Assembly (NCBI GenBank): GCA_021234155.1
Contig: JAJEKV010000210.1
Coordinates: forward strand, 88,501-152,500
Source: Isoetes taiwanensis
Taxonomy: Eukaryota > Streptophyta > Lycopodiopsida > Isoetales > Isoetaceae
Length of the DNA: 64,000 bases
Reading direction: 5' to 3'
Numbering within the stretch: the first letter of the stretch is position 1; every line of letters starts with the position of its first letter. Positions 11,584 through 61,275 of this stretch are shown here, in pieces. The position numbers and the translations under genes are program-made. The notes under the pieces were generated by a model that did not search any database, had not been told where the DNA came from, and was given only the letters and a program-made list of their open reading frames with translations.

Positions 11584-14034
11584 ATGGCAGATCTTGTTCG
11601 GTCCTCTCAGACAGATGCCGAACCCAATATAGTCATCATTGGTGCTGGCATTGCAGGTCTTGCCACAGCCCTCGCATTTCACAGGTCCGTTCTTCCAATC
11701 ATGACTTTTCAGTCCTAGAAAAGAAAAACTTAAGTTTTTCAGTCATGCGTTAGCCTAGAAAAGAAAATTTTAAGTTAGCCACTGATATATGCCTAGGAAT
11801 TGTTGTGTGGTAAGACTTACCTATCCTTTCTAATGACCATCTTCCTATTCTATTCTATTCTATTCTTTGCATTTGCATGTCAAATATAGAAATTTTTTCA
11901 TTTATGTGCCCTGCGACTAAGCTTGGTTTTCAGGTTAGGAATTCAAACACTCGTTCTGGAGCAGTCAGATACGCTAAGACCAGGCGGTACATCAATTGGA
12001 CTATGGAAAAATGCTTGGCATGCACTAGATGCTCTGGGTGTCTCCGATGAATTACGTAAAAACTATTCGAAGGTCTCTTGGTAAGTTAAATGGCATTTGC
12101 TAGTTGCCTGCATTTTTCTGGTGGATGCTGTTTTGTTTCTGCATGTGATGGCATCTATTGCATGGATATGTAACACTATAATTGGCCATGTCCGTCTACT
12201 ATTTGGAGCGCTGCAAATGCTATAGAAGGATTTTGTGACTTTATGGGCTGTTTGTCGATCATTGACGTGCATAAATCATGACATCGTAGATCTTTTATGT
12301 CTAAATGTTGAAGTGTGGTTTCTAATTTGATATTGTATATTCCATAAGCCATTGCTCTTTAACGCAGTTTTGAAGTTTTGACTGAGGCTGGGAAGTTGAT
12401 CCAGCGCATCAGCTTCAATAATGTCAGGTAAACATGCAGAACTGCAGTCTTTTATGTCATAAAGAAGCATTATTATTCTGCAATTTCTTTAAAGGTATGT
12501 TTTTTATGATTTAGAAACTCAGACCAAGTCATAAGAATAAGTCATGCCCTTCTTATGTTAGTAATCTGCATCGGAGAAAGTAGATTTAAGATTCAATCTA
12601 AGGATGCTTATTTCCATTATTCTCGTCTGTGAATTTTATCGTTCCTTTTGTCCTAACAGCATGTTACCCATTCTACGAACTTCACAGAATTATGGTGTCT
12701 TAGGGTGATGGTAGTAACTGTGGGCATAATATTTGTCCTGTTTTTCATTTCCAGTCATGAACTCCGGGCAGTGGAACGCACAGCACTTCTGGAAGCACTT
12801 GCAAAGCCCCTTCCAAAAGGAACTATTAGGTTCAATAGTAAGGTGACAAAAATATCAAAAGGTAACAAGCGATCTCAGACTGAGATTTATCTGGATGATG
12901 GAACAACTATTACTTCAAAGGTATGCTCAACGTACAGCATTTGAATTAAGCATGTACTTTTGCTTAGCGGTCTCAATTTGGAGACATGTTATAAGGTTCT
13001 TATTGGCTGCGACGGTGTGCATTCTGCTGTTGCCCAATGGATGGGGCTGAAAGAACCTGGTTTTGTGGGCCAATATGCTATTCGAGGAGTAGCTAAATAT
13101 ACAGCGGATCATGAATTTGGCACAGTTTCTAGACAGTACCTTGGTACGGGTACTCGTGGCGGAATTGTTCCCATATCTTCTGATAAAGCCTACTGGTTTT
13201 GTACCTTTAACAACACTAAGCAAGGTCCCTCCCTCCCCCTCTCTCTGGTATGTGCGTGAATACAATAGATATCCTTTTTCCTTTTGTAAATCTATCTCAT
13301 TGCATCTATCTTTTGAGTATAGTAGTTAATGCTAAAAATAGTTTAAAATCATTCATATGTGTATGTGTGTGATGGTCAATTCTAGCTGATGAAAGTCCAA
13401 ATGTGTTGAACTCTTAATCTTGTTCTCTTTATACAGTACTTGCTGACAATAGTGAGATGCATGAAACAAGATGCTAAATGTTTCTATTGCTACATTTGAA
13501 GGTTGGGTGACTGATCCTGAGAGAGTGAAGGAAGAGGCAAAGATACTGATCAAAAATTGGTCAAATGAAAGTAAAGAAATCATGTATGGTCTCATAGACA
13601 ACTCCCCACCAGAGACAATAAGCAGGAGCGCGTTAAGAGACAGGTTGGCACTTCCATTTTTTACTCCAGAGTTGGCTATCGATGGAGTAACACTTGCTGG
13701 GGATGCCCTACATCCTGTAACACCTAACTTAGGCCAGGGAGGATGTTTGGCATTGGAAGATGGTGTTATTCTGGCACGCGAAATTTACACTGCTCTCACT
13801 ACCCAAGAAGAATTTAGCCAGGTGTTATCCGATGCTTTAGAAACATATATAAACCAAAGATGGAAGAGGTTCTTACCATTGACGATCCAGTCCCGCATTA
13901 TGGGTGCAGTTATGACATTGAATTCTGCACTTTTATGTTATTTCAGAGACAACTTTGGTCTCCAGGTTCTGCTTCGGGTTTTTGGCTACTCAAACCATAC
14001 CCAATTTGATTGTGGAGCTCTTCCCATGCCTTAG
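11584..14034 (+). CDS. FAD-dependent monooxygenase, CTF2/MO1 type, copy 1 (6 exons)
   Basis: Exons 11584-11684, 11934-12080, 12368-12427, 12755-12920, 12996-13224 and 13502-14034 join in frame to 411 codons, the usual size for plant CTF2/MO1-like flavin monooxygenases (relatives of zeaxanthin epoxidase and of salicylate-hydroxylase-type enzymes). Residues 20-25 (GAGIAG) are the Rossmann FAD-binding motif; GCDGVHS at 162-168 is the DG motif; GDALHPVTPNLGQGG from residue 301 is the GD motif contacting the flavin ribityl chain. No membrane segment is visible. The reaction in this family is NAD(P)H- and O2-dependent hydroxylation or epoxidation; the substrate cannot be told. All introns are GT-AG. 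Intron 4 is only 75 bp and ends in ATAAG without a pyrimidine tract, and intron 5 ends in TTGAAG, both weaker than in copy 2. An AATAAA lies at 14166. Copy 2 starts 15 kb downstream. Confidence 0.95.
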
Positions 14035-26757: not shown

Positions 26758-29128
26758 ATGGGATCCTCTCACATAGATGCGGAAGGTAGTCAAATTGTTA
26801 TAGTCGGTGCTGGCATTGCAGGCCTTGCCACAGCCCTCGCATTTCACAGGTTCCTCTCTCCTAGTTTGCCTCTGATATATATTATATTTAGAAAAGTTTG
26901 TCAGGCATCCCTTCCGATGAACTTTTTCGCAAATAAATTTTGCTATGTAGACAACTGGCCTTGGTTTGCAGGTTAGGAATTAAAACACTCGTTCTCGAGC
27001 AATCAAATAACCTAAGAGCAGGTGGTACGTCGATTGGACTTTGGAAAAATGCTTGGCGTGCTCTAGATGCATTAGATGTCTCAGATGAATTGCGGGAAAA
27101 CTATTTTAACATCTCTTGGTAAGCTAATGCCATTTGTCAAAACTTTTCTAAATGCCATTATAATTGGACATGTCAACCGACTACCATTTGAAGACATGAT
27201 TCAAAAGCAGTCAAATGTTCTAAAAAGTTCTTTACTTGTATTTCTTCAATGCTCTCTTTCAAATAAATTCAATACAGGCATGGTTAAGTTTCATAACATG
27301 CACAGGCGGTTTATTTATTTAGCATTGAAAAGCATTTTTATAGTTGCAGATAATTTGGTATTATAAAAGCCAGTTCTCTCTGATGCAGCTTTGATATTGT
27401 TTCTGAGGCTGGGAAGTTGATCAAGCGTGTCAGACTCGATAATAATGCCAGGTAAACATGTGTCCGATGTACAACTGCGCTCTTTTGTCTCATAAAGGAT
27501 GTTTAGACATATTTATTTATATATGCATTTCCTTTGAAGCTTAACAAACTAGATATTCCAAATAAGCTCAATTTTTACAATCTAGATATTTCGAAATCAG
27601 CTTAATATTTGCATTTAGATACTAAAAGACTCATTGTCTATCGATAGAAGTCATGCCTCTTGTTGATATTATCTATATCTGGAGGAATTTTGTCTTTCTT
27701 TTCTCCTAAGCATTATGGACAAATGGAATATTTATAAAATGTTACGCATTCTACGGTTTCATACTTTAAAATGTCATGTTTTTTTCCTCCTATCTGATGC
27801 ATCTAGGGAGTGCTCAGTGTTCTAGGTTATAGCATCTGATGTTAGTGAAGTGTATGCCTAAATTCTTTCAAATTTCAGCCATGAACTTCGGCCCGTGGAG
27901 CGCACAGCGCTTATGGAAGCACTTGCAAAGCCTCTTCCTAAAGAAACTATTAAATTCAATAGTAAGGTAGAAAAAATATCAAAAGCTAAAGAAGGATCCC
28001 AGACCGAGATTTATCTGGAGGATGGAACAACTATAACTTCAAAGGTATGCTCAAACCTGCAGCATTTACTTTAAGGACGCATTTCTACTCAGCGATTTCA
28101 CCTGGTTAATGTTGTAGATGCTCATTGGCTGCGATGGTGTGCATTCTGTTGTTGCCCAATGGATGGGTCTGAAGGAACCTAGTATTGTGGGCCAATATGC
28201 TATTCGAGGTGTAGCTAGATATTCAGTAGGTCACATATCTGTCCCATTTTCTACTCAATACCTTGGTAGGGGTGTTCGTGCAGGAATTGCTTCAATATCT
28301 ACTGATAAGATCTACTGGTTTGTTGCTTTTAACAATCCTAAAGAGCAAGGTCTGTTCTCTCTCTCTCCACTTCTAAATATGAGCTTTTTGGGCACGTGGA
28401 TGCCTGGCTAAAATAGGCTTCTTAAAAAAAAGTGCTCTTCTTATTAGCGTTTCTCGTTTCTCGTCAGTACTTATAATCACAGAAAATCGTTATGACGTTT
28501 GTATGATGGCTGATAACAATCCAAAAGTGTTAAAAGTCTTGTCTTCTTTTTTTCTGGTTCAACACATGCTGAGAATGGAGAACTGAAAGTCTATGTTACA
28601 TTTGCAGGTTGGATGACTGACCCCAGTGAACTGAAGCAACAAGCAAAGATTATGATCAAGGATTGGTCAAGTGATAGCAAAAGGGTCATATATGATATTA
28701 TAGACAACACCCCACCAGAGACAGTAAGCAGAAGCACATTCAGAGACAGATTGGCACTTCCATTTTTGACCCCAAAGTTAGCTGTTGATGGAGTAACACT
28801 TGCTGGGGATGCACTACATCCTATCACACCTAACCTGGCCCAGGGAGGATGCTTGGCCTTGGAAGATGGTGTTATTCTGGCACGCGAAATCTACACTGCT
28901 CTCAAGGCCCAGGAAGAACCTAGCCAACATTTGTCCCAGGCCCTGGAAAGATATGTGAAGCAAAGATGGAAGAGATTCTTGCCATTGACAATCCAGTCCC
29001 GTATTATGGGTGCAGTTATGTCACCCAGTTCTCCAATTTTAAGTTACCTTAGAGATTACTTTGTTCTACCTTTGAATCGGTTGTCAAACCATACTCATTT
29101 TGATTGTGGAACCCTGCCTACAATTTAG
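26758..29128 (+). CDS. FAD-dependent monooxygenase, CTF2/MO1 type, copy 2 (6 exons)
   Basis: Exons 26758-26849, 26972-27118, 27389-27451, 27879-28044, 28118-28349 and 28608-29128 join to 406 codons. All introns are GT-AG with better acceptors than in copy 1; the fourth is 73 bp. GAGIAG (17-22) is the FAD-binding fold, GCDGVHS (160-166) the DG motif, GDALHPITPNLAQGG (from 300) the GD motif. The last reads NLAQGG where copy 1 has NLGQGG, a Gly to Ala change in a conserved loop. I chose the ATG at 26758 because an upstream ATG at 26736 runs into a stop and the upstream frame has no other ATG. The chain is very similar to copy 1 apart from N-terminus, codon 230 region and C-terminal tail, so the pair arose by tandem duplication. 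No stops or frameshifts; probably functional. Confidence 0.95.
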
Positions 29129-35856: not shown

Positions 35857-36617
35857 ATAGAATCGAATAGAATAGAATAGAATAGGATAGGATAGAATAG
35901 AATAGAATAGAATAGAATAAGTTTTTATCATCCATAAAGACCAATTGGCCTATGGGACCCAAACAGGAGGCGCAGCAAACGTATTACTGTCTGGTTTACC
36001 TCCCCCTCCCCCTCCCCCCCGGGGTCCCGAAGGATTGTTTGGGGGAAAACCGTGATGGGAATAGGCTTGCTATCAAACTATACAAATACAAATACAAATA
36101 CAAATACAAATACAAATACAAATACAAATACAAATACAAATACAAATACAAATACAAATACAAATACAAATACAAATACAAATACAAATACAAATACAAA
36201 TACAAATACAAATACAAATACAAATACAAATACAAATACAAATACAAATATATTATGGGGGAGATACTTATGTACACGTATTAGGTAAGTGCCTGAGGGC
36301 CGACCTGATCTCGGCGATCCATGATCTCTTGAAGGTATGATCTTAACCTTCGTACCGGGCTCGTGCTCAGCATCTTATACAGGGGCTGGCTAGGGCGGAC
36401 CAGCTCAGCATAGCGTATCTGAATGTCCTCATATGCCGGACAACTCTGAAGGATGTGGCATTCGTCCTCCATAGCTCCAACTTGGCAGCGTTGGCAAAGC
36501 CTCTCCTGATGCGGCTCCCTAATCCATCTCCCCGTCTCAATCCGGAGATGGTGTGCACCTGTGCAGATAGAGGCAATGGATCTGTGCTTTTTCATGGGTA
36601 GATGAGTGCGTTGTCAT
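35857..36617 (-). mobile_element. LINE 3' fragment with internal hexanucleotide expansion
   Basis: The minus strand encodes HLPMKKHRSIASICTGAHHL, LRIETGRWI and CQRCQVGAMEDECHILQSCP, the LINE C-terminal zinc-knuckle region, intact down to a stop at 36281. The 3' UTR then contains the (TACAAA)n block at 36081-36250. After it come CAGTAATACGTTTGCTG, GTTTGGGTCCCATAGGCC and a (TTCTA)n tail at 35857-35920. 5'-truncated. Confidence 0.88.
36081..36250. repeat. (TACAAA)n satellite, about 28 units
   Basis: 170 bp of almost perfect hexanucleotide. It sits inside the LINE 3' UTR, not at its tail. All six frames stay open through it, giving spurious YKYK and TNTN proteins. Confidence 0.98.
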
Positions 36618-38160
36618 AAGATTTTTTATGATGCCTTAGCCTATCAAATTACAAGCTATAACTCCAGTTCTTTTTCTAGTTAATGTTTTATCTGCATTGT
36701 CCATCTTGGCATTGCATTCTCTCAAATATATTTTCATAGGCATCTGATGTGTTTTTATGCAAGAAGATTTCAAAAACACTGTCTTAAAAAGGCTAGCTCA
36801 TCAAAGCTCAACAATCCCTTCTTACCCCCTCTTTACCTTCAATGCTAAAGGGTGAGATTGCTTATTTATTTTTAAATCTAACAAATTCCTGTAGGCCTAC
36901 TTATTAGTTATATTGGCTACAGGTAATTGGTGTTTGAGCTCCTTTATACAAGCTTGAGCTTATGTATTTGAGTTCTTGTTGCAATTCTTTGGTGGTATTT
37001 TAATGTTATGTAACAAAAGTTCTGGTTCCCTCTTGGTGGCATTTTAACGATTGTGCATTCTTTGATATGTAACAGTTACTATTTGAATAAAGGAGCTCAA
37101 TTTTTCCACACTCTTGTCTATGAATTTGTAAAATATATTCGTGGTCTTCAATTGTGAAATGCAACTAGATTCAATTTAATCTAGAAGAATATATGTGACA
37201 AATTGTTGACAAAAATGCTAGCAAAAACATTTCTGACGCATTCGTTGATGAAAATGTTGACGAAAATTTTGACAAACTTTTTGATGGTTTTCTTGATGTT
37301 TTTTCGTTGATGCTTTTTTGACGCTTTTTTTTATATTTAATCGTCAGAAGACCTGACGCTTTTTTTGACACGGTGTGTCAGAAAAATTTGCGAAGTTAAA
37401 TGTAGAATTTGATATGGTTTTGTGACCTCATAGAGTCTTGGTGTATTGTTGCAATGCATTTGCTTGGAATATTGGGACTGCGTATATAGTTGACATAAGT
37501 TGACCACTGTGGAAGACTGTAGTTCGAAGAAGGTAATTCTTCTCCAAAATGCAGTGATCATGGATTTTGTAGTGAGTGTTGTGCTGTGAGCTAGCATGTA
37601 AAATGGGTTATGCAGATCTTATTGACAATTTTCATAGCTACAACTTGTCATCCTGAGAAATGAGACTTTCGAGCATCTACATCCTATATGTTTCTGTTCA
37701 GAAAAGATATTAAGTTTATAGAGATACTAACACATAGCTTACAAAATTAAGGATGGGGATGTATCCATATAGTTTATACATTTTTACAGGATGCATTTCT
37801 GCTGTTAAGTGTAGGTAAAGTAGATCCAACTTTAAAGGAAAGTTTGCTGGAACCATTATGAGATATGTAGCAACCATCATTCATTTAAATTGGATTTATG
37901 TCTGTTCCAAAAGCACGCCACTTTTGCATACCCTTTTCTCAATATAGCACGCCACTTTTGCATACCCTTTTCTCAATATAGTGTTTTGTTGTGTGACATG
38001 CTGTTTTGCATTGTTGCAAATTTTTGCATTGTAGTAGTGGGTGGTTTAACATTTTCTTGTTTTAGTAAGAATGTGGTGTTTCAATAGCATTTGTAGATAA
38101 CAACACATCAATATACACAGAACACTTTTTACATTGTATTCACTTGATATGAAGATTACA
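36618..38160. other. Gene-poor stretch
   Basis: No gene recognised. Features: a degenerate TTGACGAAAATTTTGAC-rich segment at 37195-37390 that ends TTTTTGACACGGTGTGTCAG, possibly a transposon end, and a 35 bp perfect tandem duplication (AGCACGCCACTTTTGCATAC) at 37911-37980. Confidence 0.5.
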
Positions 38161-41100
38161 TCATGGAGGGACTAATCCTTTCTTTGTCAAATAACTCTCA
38201 AGATAGGGATCCATCTCCTTAGTCCGATCTAGTTCTGGATGCGTTTTGACAACATCTGATACTGTTTTACCAGAAGCCAAGCCACTCATGATGGACATGA
38301 ATAGTACTAGAAACTCATCTGTTGAGTTATCTTGTGGAGTATAAGTTGGTGGATTTAGAGCCTGACCTTGATTATAAAAGCACTTAAGATCATCATCATC
38401 TACTATTATGATGTCCTCTTTCTTTTGAATGCCAAGCTGATCCATCATAGTACCAAGATGTTTTTAAGACCGGTTTGCCATTCGGATCTCTTGGATGTGG
38501 AAACTTTATACACTTACTTTGGTCCCAAATCGTCACAAAGTCTCGATTCATGCACGGTAACACCCTAAGTACTTCATCAACATTTCTGCGTTCCATTGAG
38601 GGACGGATGGCAACTTCGAAAACAATCTGAACGCCTCATTCATCATATCTTCTAAGTGTGGGCGAGGATAGATCCACTTAGTATTCGATTCTAGAGGGAC
38701 TTGCTCGAAGTCATCCCCATTAATAAGCTTCTTAGGAAACGTTTTACACAGGACACCATTCAGATCGACGACAATGATTTTGTCACAAGCAGGTGGAGGC
38801 CTGAATCATGGAAAACAAAGAGTTAGCCATGCAAAAGTGTTCTGCAATACACGCCAAGCGCGTTTTATGCTTCATAAATAAGCTACATATCGCTACCTGG
38901 CGTGAATTACCTTTCATCGTCGCCGTCATCCGCCCGTTCAGCCGGCGTCTATTCACTCCCGGATGCTTACCGCCCGAAGCATGAACGCCGATTAAGTTCG
39001 GACATGTCCTCTTCTATGAAAGCTACCACAGGGGTTTGATTCCTAACCTCAGTGGTTGCATCTGAGCTTGCATGATCATCCTGGCTGCTATCAGCAACTG
39101 CCGCAGTCGTACCCCCAAGCTGGACATTACCAGTTGGAATGTTATCAAGCATAGACGCCAAATTTTTCTCCATGGTCTCACGTTCTGCTCTAGCATTTTG
39201 GCCTTCTCCTCGGGGTTGCATTGCTTTTGAACATTCGGAGTTGCACTTTCGGAGGCTTTTGTGAACTAGTATTTACCTTACGCCCTTTGTAAGGTACCAA
39301 AGCCAACGGGTTTTTATCTTTGACAGGACCCCAATCAGCCGTGGCTAGTACCTTCTCGAAAAACACTTCAAGGAAATCCCTGGACTGGTCATCGTTGACG
39401 AAACTTAAACATCTTCTTGATGTCTTCAGGGCCTCTCTACCAATATACCCTCCAACATGCAATTCACAGCAAGTGGTATCAAGTGGTGCAAATGCCTCAA
39501 CAAGATAGCTTGCCAGATTGATTGCAAACCCATGTTTATTCAAGGGTCCCTTTTCTTTTGTCAGCAATTCCAGAGTGATGTCTTTCCGGTAGAGGTTAGG
39601 AACATCAAATTCCTCGCCTTCATTTGCTTCATCCTCATCATCTGCTTTGTAGAAGACATTTTTCAAGTTGGGTTCATCCAAAAGAAAACACTGCCATGCA
39701 CCTTTATCCGATGCCCCTTTGCTCTTAGCTACCTCATAGTCATCATCTGGCACAAGGAATATCATTATGAAGATTATACAAGCGCTTTTATACTGCATCC
39801 TCAAATCAATATCCTTTGTCTCAAAGAGAAGAGAGCCTTCCCTAACGACCTTTAGGCATTCCAAGTCGTATGAAGCCACCAAAGCATGCATATGAGGCTC
39901 TCCTGGGGGGCATATGATGACAATAGTAAAGAGCTTCTGAGTTGTTAAGCCTATGCAGCTACTAAAAAAACTGCTGTACTCCTGTTGAGTCATCCCCTTC
40001 TCTCCTTTTGCAGTCCTGCTATCTAATACAAACAGAGAAATATTACGAGGGCCTATTGTTGTATCGGGTAGGAGACCTTTATAGCCAGTAGAGACCAGGT
40101 ATTGGAGTGTAGGTAAGTCACCACCAACATCTTTCAGGATGGCAACCTTTCTTCTCAGCTCAGCCATCACCTTATCAGATAGCTTTGAGGTGTGCTGTTG
40201 GTTCTTTGATTTCCTGTTTTGCAGAAATTCCTTCGACCAAAAGACGTATTTCTTGATGTCATCAGCAGACACGCCATATATACTTGTCTAGCAGGCCGAC
40301 TTCAGACAATGTTACATCACCAGATAGTTTCTGAAGTTCTTCACCAACTGCTACCTTCATAACTCGCATGTTCTTTATATGAGTGCAACAATCAATGAAG
40401 GACATTTTGTCCTTAACTGAAGAAGCCTTCTTGTACAGAACTTCTTTGTTTATGCATTGATTTAACAAGCAAATGATTTCATCATCTTGAAGGCCCTGTA
40501 CTTTCCTCATCTCGGTAGTCTTGAGATCAAATATTGAAGTATCTTGAGGAGGCACTCGTCCCATTGAGTCTCGGTAGTCGTTTTCGAAAGCATAAGCATC
40601 CCGAACTCGTTCCACTTCGTCCGGACTTAGGTCCCTTAGCGAAGACGATCTTGTAGGCATCTGTAGGACCTCACGGGAAGCCGCCTTGACGTCTACTTTG
40701 CTTCCTCCCCTTTTTTTTCCTTTTTTTGGCTCTTGGTTTCCTATCTTGGATGATAGTCCGAGCCAAGGTCTTTTCAATGCCTTAAACTCCTCGGACTTCG
40801 TTCCTCCCCTGCGGTCTTCCATATTCTATCCATTCTTTGGCGGGCATGGCCGGAGTTGTTCCACGTGCGAAGGGCTGCGTGTAAGGAAAGCATGTCACCC
40901 AATATGAGCAAGGCATACAAAAATTAACCGCTTTTAGATCAAGCAAAAGGATAATCGAAACGTCAAAGGCGGCCCGTGCTAATTCGGCGGGCGTGAATTC
41001 ATCTTTGCCAATTGGCCGGCGTGGCGTGAATTCATGTTGCCAATTGCGTGCACGGCGTGTATTCGTCGCCAATTGTCGCATGAATACACGCCACGCTTAA

Positions 41101-43229
41101 TTGCCAATCTATTGCATTTTGATCAGCGGCATGCGTTGGCAATTCGCGTGGGTGTATTCATGCCGACAATTCAGCGGTAATACACGCCAGCGCAATTGGC
41201 AAGATGAATTCACGCCAGAGGCGGGATTCGCGCGGGCGTGTATTCGTCGTATAAGCATGAATACCGCCAGCGGTAATTGGCAACCCATTGCATTCACGCG
41301 GGCGTGTATTCGTATACGCCTGAAGAAAATGCAAAGACATTGGCACTACAGCGTGGCATGTATTCATGCCGACGAATTACGACGAATACGCCCGGCGCCA
41401 ATTGGCAAAGATGAATTCACGCCACGTAATTGGTGTACGCTGACACTGGTTGGACCTAGTCTACTACTGTTATTGCTACTTGATATATCTGACTCTATTC
41501 CACCAAATATACTAACCTTTTATAAAGAAAGACTTCGCCCATTTCGTTCAATGTTGCACTAATCTCTGCCAGGTCCTCTGCAGGGGTATGGGGGCTTAGA
41601 AACCGACACCTCCTGTGGTTGTAATGTAGCAGATACATTGTTTGTCCGATTTGCTTAGCCTGGTTGGATAGGGATCGTTGTGCCTCAATAGAATGCTGTC
41701 CGTCAATAATAAGAAAGCATACATTAGGGTTCTCCACTGTTAGCTCTTCTAGTGTTTTCCACTGGAGTGGAGCATCATTTTTCTTATCCCAAGGAAGCAC
41801 GTCAGCTGGCATAGGAACTTGGCCTGGATTCCTCACCATCGCCCTCAATATTTTTCTTGCATGCTCAGGATCATACCTCCTGCTAACAAGACTTGACTTA
41901 TGTGATCTCACCAGACGGTCAACATGGATGGGATGTGTAAAAGATTGGCCAAGTGGGTAGTTGTCTGCATACTTGACTAGCCTACTCATTGCCTCCAGCT
42001 GCAATTTCTTTTCGGAGTCATTTTCTGCCAAAATGCCATCAAGCAATGCGGCGTGGGGATGTCCTTTCCTAAGTCCGGCAATCTTATTTGACATCCAATA
42101 GGTCGATATCATTTTGATGCTTCATCTCCTCCAGGTAATAACTTGGAGAAGGTCCTCGCAAAGCTCTCCTCACTGCAGACAGCCCTTCACTAATAGAAAC
42201 TGGAGTGAGGACAGTATTTTGAGGCCATCCGTACTTGAAACATGACTCAGCACTCACGTCCTTCTTCATCAGACCATCTTTGAAAGCAGTTGCCCTGGCA
42301 TGTGTAAATCTGGCGAGATCTTTCTTGTGGTTCTTCACAACCTCCACTAGGAGTTGATAACATATGTCATCCTGCTCCTCACAAGTGATAAGAATACCTT
42401 GTTTCTTCATAAGATCGGTCTCTTTCTTTCTGGAGTGTAACACAAGATCCACCTTACCATTTGTTTTGCCTACATCAACATACCACTCCGCACTGTCATC
42501 CATCTTCTCCTCGGGGCATGGAGGATGCGTATGCCGCTCTCGATAATGGATCCGCTATCATCCATCGACAACTCATAGGATATCAAGGTCCTCATTGGGC
42601 TTTCCCTTCTTACGTGAGTTGGAGCTCATTTGGAGTATCTTCCGAGCCTCTTGCTTTCTTAGGAGGAGGTGTAGGAGCTACCATTCGGTTTTGTCTCTTC
42701 TTCCCTCGCAAGCGAGGGTGCAATACACGCTTTAGCGATTTGGTGGTCATCAATTCCGCCAGGGCTAAAGTACGAGAATGGCATCGGTCCCCAATTACGG
42801 ACATGCACTCATAAGGCGTGCCAATTACAGCATGCCGAACAGACACTCGAAGGCAGGCCAACTAAACACGGTCATACTACTTTACAAATTATAGACAGAA
42901 CAGTTAATCACGAGCAGGACAATTTAACACAGGAAGGACATTTATTATGCAGATGCAAATACAAGTCACTGCAGAAATGAGCAGCTAAAGAAATGATAGA
43001 CAGGAGTGTGAGCAGCTATAGAAATTTAAGTCACTGCTACAGAAATAATAGGCAGGAGTATAGGCAGAAGATACCAGAGCAAATACAGTAAATACAGAGC
43101 AAACACTGCACACTAATCAGAGCAATGAACAATGAATGAATAACACACAGAATGATGATAATACTGACCTTCAGCACCTTCTCTCGCAGGCCGGCCTGAA
43201 TTTGGAGCAGCACGACCTTTGGGCGGCAT
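38161..43229 (-). pseudogene. Composite gene: ParB/DGQHR-like + methyltransferase-like + FCP1/NIF-like phosphatase domains
   Basis: Five exons (43229-43169, 42764-42614, 42492-41517, 40808-38971, 38800-38161) join with matching phases at all four GT-AG introns and give about 1,220 codons once five single-base breaks are allowed for (near 42100, 40270, 39230, 38620 and 38463). Start ATG 43229 has a TATA-like box 110 bp upstream. Exon 2 is basic, NLS-like (RGKKRQNR). FLIIDGQHSIEAQRSL (DGQHS near residue 334) matches the DGQHR motif of ParB-like/DndB-like domains. The 640-870 region looks like an N6-adenine methyltransferase, but LDSR (657) stands where DPPY is expected and HVGGYIGREAL (845) replaces the SAM-binding FxGxG. 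KIIVVDLNGVL (DLNGVL at 1020), FEVAI and IIIVDDDD resemble FCP1/NIF HAD phosphatases, with Asn for the second catalytic Asp. Domain names are inferences from motifs. With the breaks it cannot make one protein. Confidence 0.65.
40960..41440. repeat. Intron-borne array of GGCGTGTATTC / GCCAATT motifs
   Basis: Within intron 3 of the composite gene at least ten copies of GGCGTGTATTCRT or GGCGTGAATTC, or their reverse complements, alternate with GCCAATTG or GGCAATT. Orientation switches repeatedly, so many hairpins are possible. GC content is clearly higher than in the flanks. Related motifs recur at 38846-38860, 38897-38910, 42720-42830, 44597-44645 and in the hairpin at 44743-45048. Confidence 0.8.
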
Positions 43230-43757
43230 CTTCGCGATGATCTTGAGTGCCTCGGAGTTCTTGAGTTCTTGAGCGCCTCGGAGTTCTTGAGCGTCTCGGA
43301 GCAAGTCGACAATCAAAAAGAAAGAAATGGAATTCAAAAACTTATATAGATTTCCATAAGGCGATTAGGTCGGCTTTCGATCGACGGGTTTCATTCGGAT
43401 CGACTTTTGATCGACGGTCCGATAGAAGCGAGTGGTTATTAAAATTTCGCGGATCGACTTTTAATCGATGGTCCAGCGAATATTTAAATTTCGCGGATCG
43501 ACTTTTAATCGACGGTTAGCAATCTTACGATTGAGCCTAATGGGCCGGGGACGCGATAAAGACGAGCGATAAATGGCTCTCGACCGCCCGTATTGTCAAA
43601 TCCCATAATTAGATTTCACTCAGCGGCTAGAAAAGCAGTACAATTAACGGATAATTTGAAACTACCACCTAATCTTGCCGTCAGCCTTTCTTCTCATTCG
43701 AACTCGAAAGAACTCGAAAGAACTCGGAAGAACTGGGAAGAAGCCGGCGCTTGAGCG
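43230..43757. promoter_or_regulatory. Divergent spacer with four palindromic repeats
   Basis: This spacer separates the start of the composite gene (minus) from the plus-strand frame. Four copies of a TCGACTTTTAATCGA-type palindrome lie at about 43370-43388, 43395-43420, 43446-43474 and 43491-43523; the last two share a longer unit with AAATTTCGCGGATCGAC. On the minus strand CTATATAAG (43350-43342) is a plausible TATA box. Near the plus side GAACTCGAAA is repeated three times (43702-43735). Regulatory role is inferred from position and symmetry. Confidence 0.5.
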
Positions 43758-43833
43758 ATGTCGAGCGCCTTCATGTAAGTTCATCTACCCTTCCAGAACC
43801 CAAGCTCCAAATTAATCCCATGATCTTGCGACA

Positions 43834-44085
43834 TTGAACATCGTTGGAGAAGAATGCTACATGCTGACGACGAATTTGAAGAGGAGGGTGGGAAATTGCA
43901 AGATAGAATCAGTCGATCCGGAAGCAATCTGCCATGGAGTTCCTCTTGGAAATGATCATGTGAAGATTCTAGTAACCAGTTGCCATTTCAACGACGAAGC
44001 ATTACCCAGAAGCCATCCTGATGGAGACACAGTGGGTGAAAGCATCGGAACCTTTGTTGCATGGCCAGTAATTCGCTTAAAGAAG
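43834..44085 (+). CDS. Exon with DUF8039-like domain, partial gene
   Basis: An 84-codon frame, probably from the ATG at 43861, ends at a consensus donor (AAG/GTGAGT at 44085). It reads CHGVPLGNDHVKILVTS, then DGDTVGESIGTFVAWP. This resembles the DUF8039 domain found beside plant transposase-like proteins (name from memory). An ATG at 43758 with a perfect donor (AT/GTAAGT) could be a first exon, but I could not match its phase to this frame. The next exon is unclear; 46441-46465 starts in the same phase and may belong to the same gene as element B. Divergently arranged with the composite gene, which suggests a shared promoter. Confidence 0.5.
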
Positions 44086-44742
44086 GTGAGTTTCATTTTC
44101 TTGGAAGACATAGAGGAAGATTGAGTGCTCATACTAAAATGCACAAGCTGATTCTGTCATATATATGAAATTAAAACGCTTGCATGCCAGACCATTCATT
44201 CAATATTGCAAAACTATAAGGCCTGCAGACCAGAGCATTCAGGAATTTAAAAAACACTGTATTCTTTACATGGATGGGATATTCTTTAAAAAATCTGCAT
44301 TCTTTACATTGTTTTAATTGTTATTCATCTATGTGTTATTCATCTGTGTGTTGTTCCTCAGTAGTCTCAAATGCTGGCACAATAGTCTCAAATGCTGTTG
44401 AAAAAAGATAAACTGGCATACAAGATTCTGGCAACTAAGATGGTGCAGCTATTGGGATATTACCCAAAATGGCTTCGAGGTCTGCAACTCTAATTATCAG
44501 CTTAGCATTCTCCATTTCAAGCCCCTAAATAGCACGACACTAATTGAATAAGCTTATGCTTGTAGCCTATGCTGGCACAAGAGGAACTTCAGTTGAATAC
44601 GCGCCAGGCGTATGTTCAGTTGAATACGCGCCAGGCGCGAATTCATTGAGAAAACAAATTAGTGATTTCGTGCCATGAGCTAATACCATTCACTTGTAAT
44701 TTAAATGCCATGCGTGTATCCTGTATTGTACTTTAAAGCAGT

Positions 44743-45048
44743 ACTGTAATTTCTTCAGAAGCTGTACTGTAATTTTTAAATTCGAGAGAGCTGAATTGAA
44801 ATCATGCCAGGCGCGAAATATGCTTGTGTGCAAAATGTTTACATTGTGCAGGTCCAATACACGCTTGGCGTGAACTGCATAAAGCTAATTATTGTTTGCA
44901 ATTCACGCCAGGCGTGTATTGGACTGCTTGACAATTTAAACATTTTGCACACAAACATATTTCGCGCCTGGCGTGATCTCACTTCAACTCTCTCAAAATT
45001 AAGAATGAAAGAGCCAGAATTCAAAACAGCTTCTGAAGAAATTACAGT
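44743..45048. repeat. Large imperfect hairpin, arms about 140 nt
   Basis: ACTGTAATTTCTTCAGAAGC (44743) pairs with GCTTCTGAAGAAATTACAGT (ending 45048). Further in, GCCAGGCGCGAAATATG, GTGTGCAAAATGTTTA and CCAATACACGC pair with their complements on the right arm. The centre is near 44889. The arms differ by scattered substitutions and small indels. It contains the CACGCC/GGCGTG motif family of this region. Confidence 0.85.
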
Positions 45049-45283
45049 TATGCTTTCAAGTTAGAGTTGACACTAAAGAAACATATTGTAGTCATTAATC
45101 CTTGTATTGCCATTGAAAATTTTTACATAAGGCCTTTTATTAGAGTTGCCAGAATTCAAAACAGCTTCTGCAGAAATTACAGTTTTGCTTTCAAGTTAGA
45201 GTAGAAACTAAAGAAACATATTGCAGTCAGTAAATCCTTGTATTGCCATTGAAAAATTTTACATAAGGCCTTTTATTAGAGTT
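45014..45283. repeat. Tandem duplication, period 135 bp
   Basis: Copies start CCAGAATTCAAAACAGCTTC at 45014 and 45149 and share CTTGTATTGCCATTGAAAA. The first copy overlaps the right end of the large hairpin. Confidence 0.9.
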
Positions 45284-45404
45284 GCCTACGTGTTACAAAA
45301 ATTACGTAAGTTCTAGGCAGTTTAAGGAGATGCCTAGCTCCATTCATAATCCTCATTTGAGGCCTTTTTTGGAGATGCCCAGCTCGCTCTTCTGAACAAA
45401 AAAC

Positions 45405-45436
<32 letters not shown>

Positions 45437-45450
45437 CAGCCCTCTACCTC

Positions 45451-45906
45451 CTACTCTTCTTCTTCCTCATCTTCTTCCTCTGAGCTTTCATCTGCCATCT
45501 CCTCAAGGATGGCTTCTGCAACAACTTCATCATCGGAGGAGGAGAGGGCGTCCATAATCAGCTGCTTTTTTTCTTCTTCTAATTCTTCCCGCCATTCTTC
45601 ATCTGCTTCCTCCATTTCTTCTTCTTTCTCAATCTCGTTCTCCATCTCCTCATCTGAATCAAGGGGAGTATGGGGGGACTCGGGGCTGCTGATGCTGGTG
45701 CTCAGATAATCTTTTCCCGGGCGAAGCTTGCCCTGAAGAAATAACTCCTCGCAATTATCCAGGGTTGTGGTGCGAGAACAGCCACACCAAGCATCTGCGG
45801 GAGGGGGAATGGATTTCTTTATCAATTTTTTTCGCCTCTTCGCCTCTCGGGAGGCGAGTCCTGGTGAGGATGGAGCGGGGACGAGGCCGGCAGCATGGCT
45901 CACCAT
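45451..45906 (-). CDS. Hypothetical acidic protein, possibly an exon
   Basis: An ATG-started frame of 151 codons. The N-terminus is basic (REAKRRKKLIKK near 20-31), the middle has a Cys pair in AWCGCSRTTTLDNCEELF, and the C-terminal half is mostly Glu, Asp and Ser with a Glu run before the stop. Acidic tails of this kind occur at N-termini of some plant transposases, but I recognise no family. A long A run follows at 45411-45434 (plus). It lies in the gap between the DUF8039-like exon and element B, on the opposite strand. Low complexity alone could keep the frame open, so coding is uncertain. Confidence 0.35.
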   Translation of the reverse strand: MVSHAAGLVPAPSSPGLASREAKRRKKLIKKSIPPPADAWCGCSRTTTLDNCEELFLQGKLRPGKDYLSTSISSPESPHTPLDSDEEMENEIEKEEEMEEADEEWREELEEEKKQLIMDALSSSDDEVVAEAILEEMADESSEEEDEEEEE

Positions 45907-45989
45907 GGTAGAAGGAAGAAAGGAAGAAAGGATTGGCGCTAGAAGGAAGAAAGGATTGGCGGTTGAAAGAATGGAGGGTTTCTTATAGG

Positions 45990-46330
45990 CGCGGTTGTAA
46001 TTATGATTCCATCACATCATACAAGATTTATATCATATACGAATTACCTATCATTACTTCTATTGAATTAATTACGCTCTAGGTTATCATTAATTCTCTA
46101 TAGAATTACCCACATGTCAGCTATACTTAAAACCTATGTTTTCATTAATTTTGTATAATTACCTAGACCCCAGCTATACTTACAACCAACTTTGGCCCAT
46201 CTAGATTTACGACCTATACTTATCTCATTAGTACTACTAGCATACACCATATGTTACCATTAATTTTGCAATAATTACCTACACCTGAGCTATACTTACA
46301 ACCTATTTTTGGCTGCACTTACAACGTATA
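45990..46330. repeat. Degenerate tandem repeat, about three units
   Basis: Units combine ATTAATTTTGTATAATTACC with AGCTATACTTACAACCTAT; copies start near 46060, 46140 and 46255. AT-rich, not coding. Confidence 0.6.
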
Positions 46331-46440
46331 TTTGTCCATTTAATGGTTTTTTTGGTATTTCTTAAAGTTCCCTTTAATCGGTTCTCAAAATTACTTTGTC
46401 CTTTTTTCGAACTAATATTAAGACATTTCACTTCATATAG

Positions 46441-49401
46441 GTGAAGCGTGTGGATCCTAAAAAGGGTAAAAATGTAATGCCTATCCCCCCAACATGTTTC
46501 AACATTGTTACCACATGTTCTTATCACATTGTTACCCCATTGTAAACATTGTTCTTGTAGGTCAATGCTGTGGACCACCCAAAGGGTGTTGAGGCTTAGA
46601 CTACTAAGCAAATTGTCCTCTACAGTAGGTTGGATTGGAAGAATAAGAAGGTGAAAGTGAAGCACCAATGTAATAAGGAGCTAGTAGGTGAAGGAACTAT
46701 CATACTAGCTGATCCTATCCAGGCTGTAAAGGTTAGGAGAGGATAAAGTGGGTGTGGCCATAACAAGTTTAGAGGAAAAATGGAAGGAAAAAGGATCAAA
46801 TCACCAGGATTGCACTGCTTGTATTAAACAATTAGAGGTTCCATGCATCATGCCACGGCCTATAGCCTGCATTGAGTTTATAGGAGAATTCCTTTTACCG
46901 GAGCCAGAGGTTGTGGATGACACTGATTTTCTTAATGCACCTCCAATAGCTGCCAGGACCACATTTTCAGAGAAGAGGGCACACTCAGTGGTGAAACATT
47001 ATCCTAGCAAGAGGTCCAAGTCAAGTAGTGATTGTTCACATGAAGCTCTGACTAAGGTAAGGGGAATAGAATGTTGTTGGGCTAATTGTGTTCAGAAGTT
47101 TGAAATTGATGAATTGGTGGAAGCAAGAGCCACCTTCCAAGAGTATACTTGTGATGAGAGGAGGACTTACATGTACTCCATTCATGAGCTTGCACTTCAA
47201 GATGAAAAATTTCCAAAGAAAAAAAAATACCCACTGCTAGGGACATGGATATGTGAAGTTGCATGGATACATATTCATGGCATTCCAATTTCATCTTGGC
47301 AAAATTGGCAAGCAAGTCATGCAAAGGGGAGTAAAATTGTATTACATGGAAATAATGGCATGTTGAGGCCAACTTCTAGGATCCTGGCTGCTAGGGAGGT
47401 TTTTGAAAAATATGTTGAATTCAATGCTGAGAATATGCCACATAAAAGTAGGAAAGATCAACAGGGAAAAATAGTTGTCGAAAAGAGATTGCCATCCCAT
47501 TGTACCCAGAAGAGCATATTGGAGGAAGTGAATGCTTTGCTTCGAGAACTACAGTACACCGCAATATCTCAACCCGCCTTGATGAGACTATGGAGCAAGC
47601 ACTTCAAGCATGTCACTATAGACACTTCGAACAACTTTGCAAAGTGCAACTTGTGTGCTAAGTTGAAAGAGATTCTTGATAAGACCAAGCAACCAAGCCA
47701 AAGGGATAAGATAAGGGAGCAAATGAAAGATCACATGACAGACCAACTATCATGTAGATCCACTTATTGGATGTGGAGAACATTATCATGTTTGGAACCC
47801 AATAACTATGTTTGTATTATACATGACAAGATGGATCAATCAAGACTTGTTTGCCACAAGATAGTTACATACCCAAGCAAATCAATAGAGCTTATCCTTT
47901 GCAAGTCTCTCTGACAGGTGCAATAGTGCATGGCTCGGTGCCAATGGCCATTTTAGTTTGCAATTGTGGAGTGATGGTCCTGATTTTCATATTGGAAGTG
48001 TGATGAAGTGCTTGAGGAACTATGAGAGTGGTTATTCTGGTGACCTCCACAACCCTGGAGGTGGTAGCCAACCACTCTTGAAGGCATTGTTGGATAGAAA
48101 GCCTAATAATTTAGAGAAGTTTACTAAGGCAAGGTTTAGGAAGTCAGGTGCTTGAACATGTTGGAGCCTCAAGTTCACGCCCCCAACCTCGAGATCTACC
48201 ACCAAGGTTCCTCCTCCAACTTGACAATTGTCTTTGCCGGATGAGAATACAAACAGTATATGTTCTCATTCCTATCTTATTTAAAGTACCGTGGGTGTCT
48301 TTTGAAAGAGTGAATTTAGGGTTCTTAATGCCCGGACATACTCATGAGGATGTGGATACATTATTTGGGAAGTATAGTCTTGCAGCTTGAAATCTCAAAC
48401 GTGACCAATCTTCCTAGACTAATGGAAGTTCTTAGTGAATGCATTTCACCTTCTCCTATAGGGTTGATCATACAAGAGGTGCCTGATTGGAAGAATTTTA
48501 TCGAAGGTTATGCTCTTGATATGGAAGGTCAATCTAGACCTCTTCAGTACACTTTTTGGGTCATGGGAAATAAGCCAATCATGCAATGGAAGATGAGACC
48601 TTCAGATGATAAATGGAGGCCAGATGAGGGAGTACCTATATGGCACGAAGATGAAAATGGTAAACCTAAGATTCCAAGGGGTCAACCAAAAGCTCTTAAG
48701 CCTTTTCCAGAGGTGGATTCATTGCAAAGCACATTGGACGGCCTTTCTGAATACATCAAGTATTGGAAAAATAACCCCGATGATACCAACCTTGCATTGA
48801 TAGATTATTGGACACAGGTACATGGATTATTGGGACAAGTAGACACATCCTCTGATGAACTCATGGATGGCTACCTAAGACTAGGTGGAGAGACTTGATA
48901 ACACCTGAGGAAGCTGATGATGTGGTTAGTAGTATTCGCAAGTCCATGGCTCCTCCAGCTGCTGAAAAACACTATGTTAGTCCTAGGAAAGGAAGGCCTA
49001 AATATCTTGGGCTGGAGGATTATGATCCCAAAGATGACTTGCTTTGCCATCAATTTGCACTTATAGTACTAGAGCGCAAAGAGATATACCATGTGTGGAT
49101 GGGTTACACCATCTCAGAGGTTTGCAAAGAAGTAGGTGACCGCAATGTGAACAAAGTTCGTGTGGAGTGGTGGTGTCCAGTGCACCAGTTAAATGCAGTG
49201 GCAGATGAAGAAAGGTATAGAGACTGTTGGACAAAGAGATGGAAGAGAAACCCTATTGAAGGGGATGATTGGGTTGAGTTAGATACTATTTTGTTTTCAT
49301 GGACCCCAAAGGTCATCCCAGGCAAGACTGCTAGGGTTACAATTTCTGTGGAAGTGAGGAAGAAAGCTATGATATCTCTAGGGGTCACTTCTGAGAAGTA
49401 A
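46441..49401 (+). pseudogene. DUF7869-type transposase-like gene, broken (element B)
   Basis: The longest frame (46748-47914) ends in a frameshift, then the protein continues in other frames to a stop at 49401. In order: IILADPIQAV near 46710, LLRELQYTAISQPALM, NYVCIIHDKMDQSRL (first acidic site, about 47820), YPLQVSLTGAIVHG in a second frame (47905), LHNPGGGSQPLLKALLD (48045), FLLQLDNC (48220), GFLMPGHTHEDVDTLF (48325), then DWKNFIEGYALDMEG and VEWWCPVHQL in the C-terminal part. The LDN and GHTHEDVD boxes are the hallmark I associate with DUF7869, a DDE-like family. At least four frameshifts and one early TAG disable it. It follows the DUF8039-like exon on the same strand, and the pair may once have been one gene. 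Confidence 0.75.
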
Positions 49402-49638
49402 TTGGCAATATGTAACTCGACATGCATATGTGAAATATTTTTAATTTTTAATGCAATCATGTTGTGCTGTTATAAAAAAAAGTCACATTCTCGATGCAAA
49501 TTTACTAACCCGGGAAAAAGTTGCAGTGCCAAAATGGTCCAAAATCCTGACATAAATCCAATTTAAATGAATGATGGTTTAGCTCATTTTATTACCCTTT
49601 CTCCTCCCTTAAAGTTTGTGTTGTATGCATATTGGCAG

Positions 49639-58959: not shown

Positions 58960-61275
58960 TGCCAAAACTGAACCTAATATGTATATATCCAGCACATTGC
59001 AAAAAAACATGATGTTCATCTTCTATATACCCTGCATTGCATACCTTACATAATCTTTCTTGCAATGGAATCTTTATCTATCTTCCTGTTTCTACTTCCA
59101 GCTTATGTGCACATGTTCTATATCTCGCTATCAACTGTTTATGTAATTTTGGTATGCATGCCTTCAGATAATTTTTACATTCATAAGCATCTAGATGGTT
59201 GACACTAGTCTGATATTGTATCATTCGTTTCCCATGTTCGGCCCATAGACGGTCTATTGCTAGCTTTTCTATCAAAATTCTCGCTTCCTGCTTATCAGTC
59301 AGCCAATTTAAGCTGTCCATGCCCCATCTGTTCATCCAAAGCATAAGACTTCTCTTCCATCTTGGATTTGAATCTAGCATAGCTCGATGGGATAAGCCAT
59401 CCAATTTTTTGTTCCCTAACGAGTTATAGAATTTATGGGCCTGATATAAGCTCTCGAGTTCGATTGGGACATGCCCACTTCTGCCAACATTATAGCATAT
59501 GGAACTTGGGATTAGATGCCAAGTTCCTCTCTCAATAACATTTTCTAAACTGTTTCTATCTGTTTCCACATCTGGGTTGAGATCCCAGGACCCCAGATAG
59601 GCACATCGTATGGCAGAATGATTTGAACAAGCGTCTTAAACAAGATTCTTTTCAATCTCCATTCAATGAGCGATGCCTTGCTGCACTTTGCCAACATGCT
59701 ATACAAGGTGGCTTTTCCTCCTGACACTCTTCTTTTTGTACAGTTCTTCCAACTATAGTTAGATGCTATATCTATGCCGAAATATTTATACCAGTCCAAA
59801 GTCTCTAGAACTTGCCCCTTGTATGTGAAATCCAGTCTGTCTTTGATGCCAAATATCATGACCTTCAATTTAGTTACATTCACACTCATGCATTTTGCTT
59901 CACTGAATGCTTCTAAGCTGTTCAAATGATCTTGTAATACTTTCTGTTTGCTTGCTAACAATACCACATCATCTGCATAGAGAAGAAGTTGGATAATATA
60001 CATGCCTAGTTTTGTGCCCGCAAGAGATCTGGCTCTCAACCAATCATCCAATTCATCCACGAAAATTCTGGACAGGGTCGGAGATAAAGGGTAGCCCTGA
60101 CGTACCCCTATGGTACTCTTAATTTCCATGTCAAGATCCCATGAGACTTTTACCAACACCTCAGCATATAACTTTGAGACTGCCTCTTTAATATTTTGAG
60201 GAACACCAATCTGTTGCAATCTATCACTAAGCTTTTTGCATGGCACATTGTCGAATGCTTTAGCAAAATCTATGAATGCTATATATAGGATGCATTTGGA
60301 GCTTTTGCCTTTTCTATCAAAGTCCTGAGGATAAGCACATGATCCAATGTGTTATGATTACCTCTGGAACCTGCTTGATACTCTGAGCATATGGCCATTT
60401 TCTCTGCCAGGAGCTTAGTTTCCATTCCAAAAGGTTGCCTAGAATTTTGGCGGAGACACTACCAATCAAAATTGTTCTGTAGTTTCTTCCTACCTTTTTG
60501 TCTCCTCCATTGTGAATTGGATGAACACGGTTGGTTCTTTAGTTGGATGGCAGCCCTTGCATGAGGCTTTTATTCATCAGATTTGTCAGGATAGATAGGG
60601 TCTCATCACCCCCTCCCCAACTTGAAAAGATCCACATAGAAGCCATCTGCATCATGTGCCTTGGATCGCTTTGGATAGGCAATCACTAACCTCTGATATA
60701 GTGAATATGTTTGCACTAAAGAGCCATTTTTGGCATCCCATTTGCGCCCTCCTTTTCATAAATATCTTTCACTAAATTGGACAAGGCTTCCATGTCCAAA
60801 ATAGCTTGCTCTGATCTGCCTTGAAGCATGTCCCAAAAGCTTTTTGAAATTTTCCTAAATTGGTCAGATAACTTTGCCTGCTGTTGTGCACAAAAGTCAT
60901 GCTTTTTTTGTCTGATCAAGTTCTTATACCATTTAGTTTTGTATATACAATTTTGTGGTAATGTGCTTCTCGCCTCTTGGCATTCAGAATCCCACCATGA
61001 ATTGCAAGGCGTACCTTGTAGGCATTTTTTGGACAAACCAAATATATGTCTAGCTGCCTCAAATATAATGTCCTAGAACTGTTTTGCATCTGCTTCAGAA
61101 TTCCCTGACCCAGTGGCTTTAGTAAGGCGCTCCTCTACTAATTTTGTGTATGCCAAGTGATGCTCATAGTTAACCTTGAGCTTGGGATGGTAACATGGCT
61201 TTGCACTTTTGAATTTGCTTGCAGCTTAAGCATTATATATAGTGGGGTATGATTCGATTCTGGTAGAACTAAAAA
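58960..61275 (-). mobile_element. LINE fragment with reverse transcriptase, 5'-truncated
   Basis: Minus-strand order: ESNHTPLYIML near 61262, an endonuclease end (SDH-like box); linker 61200-60716 (WWDSECQEARSTL, FWDMLQGR); reverse transcriptase with NYRTILIGSVSAKILGN near 60480, FIDFAKAFDNV near 60270, GVRQGYPLSPTLS and the catalytic LLLYADDVVLLA at about 59985; then a connection region to 59078 and a zinc-knuckle CKVCNAGYIEDEHHVFLQC near 59030. Stops and frameshifts separate the segments, so it is inactive. It belongs to the same broad LINE group as the short 3' ends in this window, whose C-termini share the RIETGR and EDExH pattern. The 3' end near 58960 lacks an obvious tail. Confidence 0.88.

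Follow-up and report, generated by a model that had tools for sequence, protein, structure and literature searches.

We analyzed a 64,000-nucleotide stretch of the Isoetes taiwanensis genome (contig JAJEKV010000210.1 of assembly GCA_021234155.1, positions 88,501 to 152,500; hereafter the window) and found that it contains an 11.7-kb DNA transposon at window positions 37872–49579, which encloses two genes, gene A on the minus strand and gene B on the plus strand. The noncoding parts of the element hold a short recurrent palindrome with a version for each subfamily, and gene A may encode the protein that reads it. The original prediction for this locus had proposed that gene A combines ParB/DGQHR-like, methyltransferase-like, and FCP1/NIF-like phosphatase modules and may be the core of a selfish element. 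The link to a selfish element proved right: gene A lies between terminal inverted repeats flanked by target duplications and beside a transposase-like partner gene.

Element Ends and Copy Number

The element is a terminal inverted repeat (TIR) DNA transposon with 4-bp target duplications of varied sequence. In the window, its 31-bp TIRs (37872–37902 and 49549–49579) form a perfect inverted pair and are adjoined on the outer sides by the duplicated target TAGC (37868–37871 and 49580–49583), all four features being strandless. We searched the genome (1.66 Gb in 1,110 contigs, the window included) for the 31-bp end sequence, allowing at most three mismatches, and found 2,683 matches, 1,332 forward and 1,351 reverse, compared with none for the reversed control. 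Target duplications were assessed for all convergent ends 9–16 kb apart, other than the window pair, among the first 100 exact-match places (n = 17). Exact 4-bp duplications were present outside the ends in 16 of these 17 pairs, as they are in the window copy. Three of the 17 pairs were on one contig with an identical duplication and probably represent a single duplicated insertion. Within 165 kb of contig C19, the element occurs three times with the same target duplication, CAAG, and a partly shared flank, and was thus probably copied there by segmental duplication.

The ends are recognizable also outside the window subfamily. A related end sequence was found 3′ of gene A in five of the seven tested copies of two other gene A subfamilies (score 23–25 of 31, shuffles at most 15), none being seen 3′ of gene A in L033 and L034, and over all subfamilies the element end lay 3′ of gene A in 8 of the 10 copies tested. 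The 4-bp duplications agree with the Sola1 superfamily, which has target duplications of this length; the length by itself is not diagnostic, as Kolobok elements also have 4-bp duplications, in their case of TTAA only. We describe the element as a two-gene, Sola1-like TIR DNA transposon. Sola1 is listed among the elements of Physcomitrella in the available part of a published account (PMC9033089).

Structure and Conservation of Gene A

Reading the minus strand from 43229 to 38161, we recovered the complete predicted motif series, FLIIDGQHSIEAQRSL, ELHVGGYIGREAL, KIIVVDLNGVL, FEVAI, and IIIVDDDD, in that order. The segment with the first motif matched at least 150 places in the genome at E 2.5e-57 or better, and we fetched 20 gene A places that were good first-domain matches in the same genome. 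In 17 of the 20 copies, the ParB/DGQHR-like, methyltransferase-like, and NIF modules followed each other in this order on one strand; L026 has the first module only, L031 is rearranged, and L030 lacks the third module in the fetched stretch, after an insertion. As the segment with the first motif matches at least 150 genome places and 17 of 20 copies retain all segments in order, its presence in the window is not due to chance.

The window copy of gene A consists of ten open segments, as we cut them; three introns separate them, as do frame changes, of which we counted no fewer than seven. The introns were placed at approximately 43168–42705, 41516–40875, and 38970–38801 by eye and by comparison with the open exons of other copies, in place of the four that had been predicted. 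Exon 1 (43169–43229) would hold the start codon and about 20 codons, as judged from its sequence and a donor site. It is followed by exon 2 with the ParB/DGQHR-like part (41517–42704, the upstream boundary being approximate), exon 3 with the methyltransferase-like part (38971–40874, with putative boundaries), and exon 4 with the NIF/FCP1-type phosphatase domain (38161–38800), all on the minus strand and the last three frameshifted in this copy. A candidate acceptor of intron 2 at approximately 40809 was dropped, exon 3 beginning farther upstream in the open copies. With so many frame changes, the complete protein is not encoded by the window copy.

Other copies give a view of the intact gene. 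The lengths of their open exons sum to roughly 1,200–1,300 codons, in agreement with the predicted figure of about 1,220, and each exon is open in some copy, although none of the fetched copies was seen to be open throughout. Exon 2 is open over 393–406 residues in seven other copies and exon 4 over 214–236 residues in seven copies. In the copy L043, exon 3 is open over 683 residues and exon 2 is interrupted once, by a frame change close to its end, while L036 has open exons 2 and 4 (393 and 232 residues) and, in exon 3, an open 564-residue segment with one frame change upstream. Near another gene A copy, L046, we noted a 605-residue open reading frame (ORF), which we take to be a Copia-like polyprotein.

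The gene A copies represent three subfamilies that are approximately 50% identical in exon 2. We computed the ratio of nonsynonymous to synonymous substitution rates (omega) with the Nei–Gojobori method, using open segments only, which biases the estimates toward constraint; pairs between subfamilies were not computable. Among diverged members, omega was 0.08–0.21 in exon 2 (four pairs), 0.07 in exon 3 (one pair with a synonymous divergence, dS, of 2.6), and 0.23 in exon 4 (one pair), several of the dS values being near saturation. These values suggest that gene A has been under purifying selection between diverged members.

Domain Assignments

The identity of exon 4 as a NIF domain is certain from its profile matches. 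All six copies searched without read-through matched Pfam NIF (PF03031) at E values from 1.1e-17 to 3.8e-12 (46.6–64.6 bits, cut-off 21.8), and exon 4 of the window matched it at 1.5e-11 with X placed at the frame changes. The catalytic motif of NIF/FCP1 phosphatases is DxDx(T/V), and the copies covering this site read DLNGVL or, in two cases, DLNDVL and DLNVVL. The first Asp is thus kept and, because an Asn is found at the position of the second, phosphatase activity is uncertain. Among protein sequences in PDB, the nearest to the NIF part of L036 was UBLCP1, which was not significant (E 0.066).

Exon 2 contains the FLIIDGQHSIEAQRSL motif (41669–41716, minus strand), in which the pattern I-D-G-x-H-S-x-E-A-Q is unchanged in all 12 rows of the exon 2 alignment. 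A DGQHR-type motif typifies the ParB/DGQHR domain, and an hhalign comparison of exon 2 with eight phage ParB proteins placed the motif in register (score 16.8). We consider the ParB/DGQHR assignment of exon 2 only weakly supported.

For exon 3, hhalign comparison with nine phage N4/N6 methyltransferases paired KG-LNK-GF...ELHVGGYIGREAL with the HxTQKP...DPFAGSGT region, and ELHVGGYIGREALK (39424–39465, minus strand) was aligned with the region of methyltransferase motif I. The score of 24.4 (P 0.015, probability 3%) was higher than any obtained from 100 column shuffles (at most 23.3); two reversed controls scored 15.8 and 18.3, and exon 2, as a further control, 13.2. The 20 exon 3 rows gave no believable methyltransferase family match in Pfam or NCBIfam. 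A DPPY-type motif IV was not found in the covering rows, which have CPPG, CPSD, or CHSD at this position, one row being gapped beyond CPP, and E-x-HVGGY takes the place of DPFxGxG in motif I. With the DPPY-type and motif I residues missing, methyltransferase activity is unlikely. The alignment is weak but falls in the right place, and we conclude from these sequence comparisons that exon 3, a weakly supported methyltransferase-like part, probably descends from a methyltransferase that has lost catalysis. The original prediction was right in joining the three modules in one gene and in naming the NIF module, whereas the names of the other two are weakly supported.

Direct searches with these proteins returned little. 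Exon 2 had no direct match in phages and none in GTDB contigs, exon 3 had none in plasmids, and neither exon 2 nor gene B had relatives in IMG/VR. Sequence searches against PDB gave nothing significant (chance-level matches at E 0.63 and at E 0.82 and up), and PADLOC reported nothing for seven proteins.

Palindromes in the Noncoding Parts

By counting common words in four copies, we traced a palindrome, CGCYWRGCG, to the noncoding parts of the element. All six of its occurrences in the window are inside the element and none is found in the remaining 52 kb. One is in intron 3 of gene A (38852–38860) and five (starting at 44602, 44629, 44862, 44906, and 44965) are within 44602–44973, in a putative intron of gene B, the sites being strandless. 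Intron 2 of gene A (40875–41516, minus strand) has two loose relatives of the palindrome, at 41184 and 41388. Across the 17 copies with all modules we counted 127 palindromes, with intron 2 as their densest place (51 palindromes, 5.46 per kb), followed by intron 3 together with the tail of exon 3 (24; 2.60 per kb), the gene B side (40; 1.18 per kb), and the promoter and intron 1 (12; 0.56 per kb). In the same copies, the palindrome is missing both from the exon matches (56.3 kb) and from the sequence 3′ of gene A (35.9 kb). Coding constraint may account for its absence from exons; the 3′ sequence serves better as a control. The copies excluded from this count, three in number, have zero, two, and two palindromes. 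Genome-wide, we found 1,771 exact sites of CACGCCWGGCGTG and 1,639 of CGCGCCWGGCGCG, each reversed pattern giving one.

The palindromes differ between the subfamilies at the base five positions from the center. In subfamily 2, both arms have A or T at this position in 23 of 25 sites, and in subfamily 3, both have G or C in 29 of 30 sites; the window subfamily is hybrid, 53 of its 72 sites pairing an A/T arm with a G/C arm. Spacings of 32 and 41–42 bp, close to three and four helical turns, recur between palindromes. The 32-bp spacing accounts for 10 of the 26 spacings shorter than 160 bp in a subset of the sites, many of them in duplicated stretches, and a helical phasing is only suggestive.

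Gene B and the Head-to-Head Layout

Gene B is divergent from gene A and on the plus strand. Its 5′ exon (43816–44087) resembles Transposase_23 (TNP1/EN/SPM) at E 0.0021, the 18.3 bits being below the cut-off of 21, and is present near gene A in 18 of the 20 fetched copies. The 3′ exons (46442–49401, with a putative start) are frameshifted in the window and contain a DUF7869 transposase-like domain: this remainder of gene B matched DUF7869 at 1e-25 (90.9 bits, cut-off 26) with X at the frame changes, and one piece without read-through matched at 9.1e-5, just under the cut-off. Gene B has at least 109 match rows in the genome, many with open frames of more than 400 residues.

The layout of the two genes is recurrent. 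At no fewer than 24 of 105 gene B places, a gene A copy stood head-to-head at a distance of up to 16 kb, in most cases near 5 kb, and at 3 of the 105 the two genes had another arrangement; shifted gene A places, used as the null, gave a mean of 0.5 and a maximum of 3. The figure of 24 is a lower bound because each gene has thousands of candidate places, of which only those with the best scores were listed. The putative gene B intron also contains an acidic ORF on the minus strand (45451–46011), which is matched in 8 of the 20 other copies.

Outside the element, two similar open segments on the plus strand of the window (13465–14034 and 28517–29128) resemble 3′ exons of flavin adenine dinucleotide-dependent monooxygenases and are presumably a tandem gene pair. 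Broken ORFs with a YADD motif on the minus strand (59078–60351) look like reverse transcriptase, and we take them to be a fragment of a long interspersed nuclear element. The hexamer ATACAA is repeated 28 times with 100% matches at 36080–36250.

Comparison with Known Systems

The closest described relative in layout is a 21.5-kb Sola1 element of Ectocarpus, Sola1-1_Ec32, which has a gene for a 1,104-residue ParB-like and N4-cytosine/N6-adenine (N4C/N6A) methyltransferase protein on the opposite strand (PMC12477816). According to the available part of that report, its authors propose that the protein modifies the element's own sequence, and similar ParB-methyltransferase-like proteins are found in transposons of green and red algae, for which it cites pmid 21507349 and the Bostrychia genome (Curr Biol 2025). 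By description, both systems are large DNA transposons with an accessory gene opposite the transposase that joins ParB-like and methyltransferase-like parts, the accessory protein of the present element having a comparable length of roughly 1,200–1,300 residues. The present element differs in its plant-like host and smaller size (11.7 kb), in the added NIF phosphatase domain, in a methyltransferase part that looks catalytically lost, and in the intronic palindrome arrays, which go unmentioned in the available part of the Ectocarpus report. The original prediction that no described plant protein has this order of modules holds, in the literature searched, only for the NIF addition: the combination of ParB and methyltransferase parts in a gene facing a Sola1 transposase from the other strand was already on record from Ectocarpus (PMC12477816, as far as available). 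We found no NIF fusion described in the open-licence literature searched, where FCP1 was asked for and NIF by name was not, and no description of intronic palindromes of such elements in the same literature.

Phages also have ParB-methyltransferase fusions. EJ-1 ORF37 and the Javan95 protein are annotated as transferase or methyltransferase and share with gene A a ParB-like N terminus; in contrast to gene A, their ParB parts keep G-H-x-R and no NIF is annotated. Nine other phage methyltransferases differ from gene A in having DPPY in their consensus.

A functional parallel is offered by the VANC proteins of VANDAL transposons, which are MuDR-type elements. To our knowledge, none of the three gene A modules (ParB, methyltransferase, NIF) has a counterpart in VANC. 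In Arabidopsis, VANC binds noncoding regions of its own VANDAL family that are rich in tandem short motifs differing between families and induces loss of silent marks (PMC10398659, as far as available). The likeness consists of a transposon-encoded protein other than the transposase, motif repeats in noncoding sequence, and versions that differ by family; the present element has this VANC-type feature, with motif arrays in its own noncoding parts. The VANDAL motifs are tandem repeats and are not described as palindromes in the main text of the report (PMC10398659), in contrast to the sites found here. We propose, by analogy, that gene A is comparable to VANC, with putative binding to the palindromes.

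Discussion

The best explanation that we can offer, built on analogy and to our mind about evenly balanced between right and wrong, is that the gene A protein recognizes the palindromes of its own family and opposes silencing or sustains transcription. A symmetrical site that recurs in noncoding sequence and differs from one subfamily to the next is the trace expected of a sequence-specific protein of the element itself, and gene A, a conserved non-transposase gene with a ParB-like part, is the natural candidate for its reader. The gene A protein would recognize the palindromes in the introns and the spacer, and this recognition would confine its action to its own family; at the palindromes it would oppose host silencing or keep the element transcribed, and the DUF7869 protein of gene B would move the element. 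The NIF part might recruit, dephosphorylate, or otherwise act on a transcription factor or a chromatin protein. We infer, throughout, the palindrome binding by gene A, the antisilencing effect, the methyltransferase descent of the middle part, and the role of the NIF part. A more specific version, on which we would put somewhat less than an even chance, is a self-recognition of the parS or operator type by a ParB-derived protein with a dead methyltransferase and a NIF domain, where the subfamilies would have rewritten the protein and the half-sites, each protecting its own copies.

Several observations weigh against this explanation. All 12 exon 2 rows have S in place of the R of DGQHR, giving DGQHS. 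Pfam DndB matched 6 of the 12 rows with a best E of 0.0012, the first row scoring 15.3 bits against a cut-off of 29.1; PHROG 1033 (ParB-like) matched one of three exon 2 proteins at E 0.077, under the cut-off; and a search of the same genome with the DndB family matched none of 25 candidates. The hhalign score of exon 2 against ParB was beaten by 4 of 100 shuffles, and by 5 or more when exon 2 was trimmed, and the profile alignments behind the exon 2 and exon 3 tests were shallow (effective number of sequences, Neff, 1.6–1.8). AlphaFold2 gave poor models for both parts, the mean predicted local distance difference test (pLDDT) score being 39.6 for exon 2 (12 rows) and 32.8 for exon 3 (20 rows, some copies contributing more than one). 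There is little sign of constraint among recent copies, as omega between close pairs was 0.35–0.88 in exon 2 (0.37–0.88 within the window subfamily) and 0.99–4.23 on very few changes in exon 4. The close-pair value in exon 3 was 0.28. Within a subfamily the palindromes share a common descent and are not independent events, and their binding partner could instead be the gene B product or a host protein.

The palindromes can also be read as sites of a different activity. Gene A could be a transposition co-factor that binds them to pair or present the transposon DNA, with no relation to silencing. Second proteins of some plant transposons likewise bind repeated sites, and the head-to-head position with the transposase-like gene B, the palindrome arrays inside the element, and the subthreshold resemblance of the gene B 5′ exon to Transposase_23 all fit this role. 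Binding sites of such co-factors are usually subterminal, whereas the palindromes occupy introns and the spacer and are missing from the 3′ side of gene A, the only end assessed, which is where the element end sits in most of the copies tested; we judge this role unlikely. An enzyme that remains active and labels element DNA as self by N4C or N6A methylation at the palindromes or close to them would match the architecture of the Ectocarpus Sola1-1 gene and its authors' suggestion of self-modification (PMC12477816, as far as available), and the weak similarity in profile to N4/N6 methyltransferases of phages points the same way. The residues at the DPPY and motif I positions and the 20 rows without a family match in Pfam or NCBIfam argue against it, and we regard an active enzyme as distinctly improbable.

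The two remaining alternatives detach the palindromes from gene A or gene A from the element. Palindromes can form hairpins, and the arrays in the window contain direct and inverted duplications, so they might be a fold-back repeat or RNA hairpin, for example a splicing aid in GC-rich introns or a small-RNA source. This reading leaves their absence 3′ of gene A in the same copies unaccounted for, and the fixed half-site difference of the window subfamily suits two protein half-sites better than a stem; it too seems rather improbable to us, to nearly the same degree. Gene A might, finally, be a passenger, a captured host gene copied without a function for the element, as the broken state of the window copy and many others and the weak constraint among close copies would allow. 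It is hard to reconcile with a domain order kept across three subfamilies of such low exon 2 identity or with the omega values of 0.07–0.23 between diverged members, and we give it very little credence.

In the available part of the literature, ParB-methyltransferase genes in eukaryotic transposons have been reported from a few algae (PMC12477816), where self-marking has been suggested with no target site named. With the present family, the record extends to a plant-like host in which the element ends match at 2,683 places, to a fusion with a phosphatase domain, and to concrete candidate target palindromes for each subfamily. If gene A binds these palindromes, plant transposons would have evolved sequence-specific self-recognition a second time and independently, here from prokaryote-type parts.

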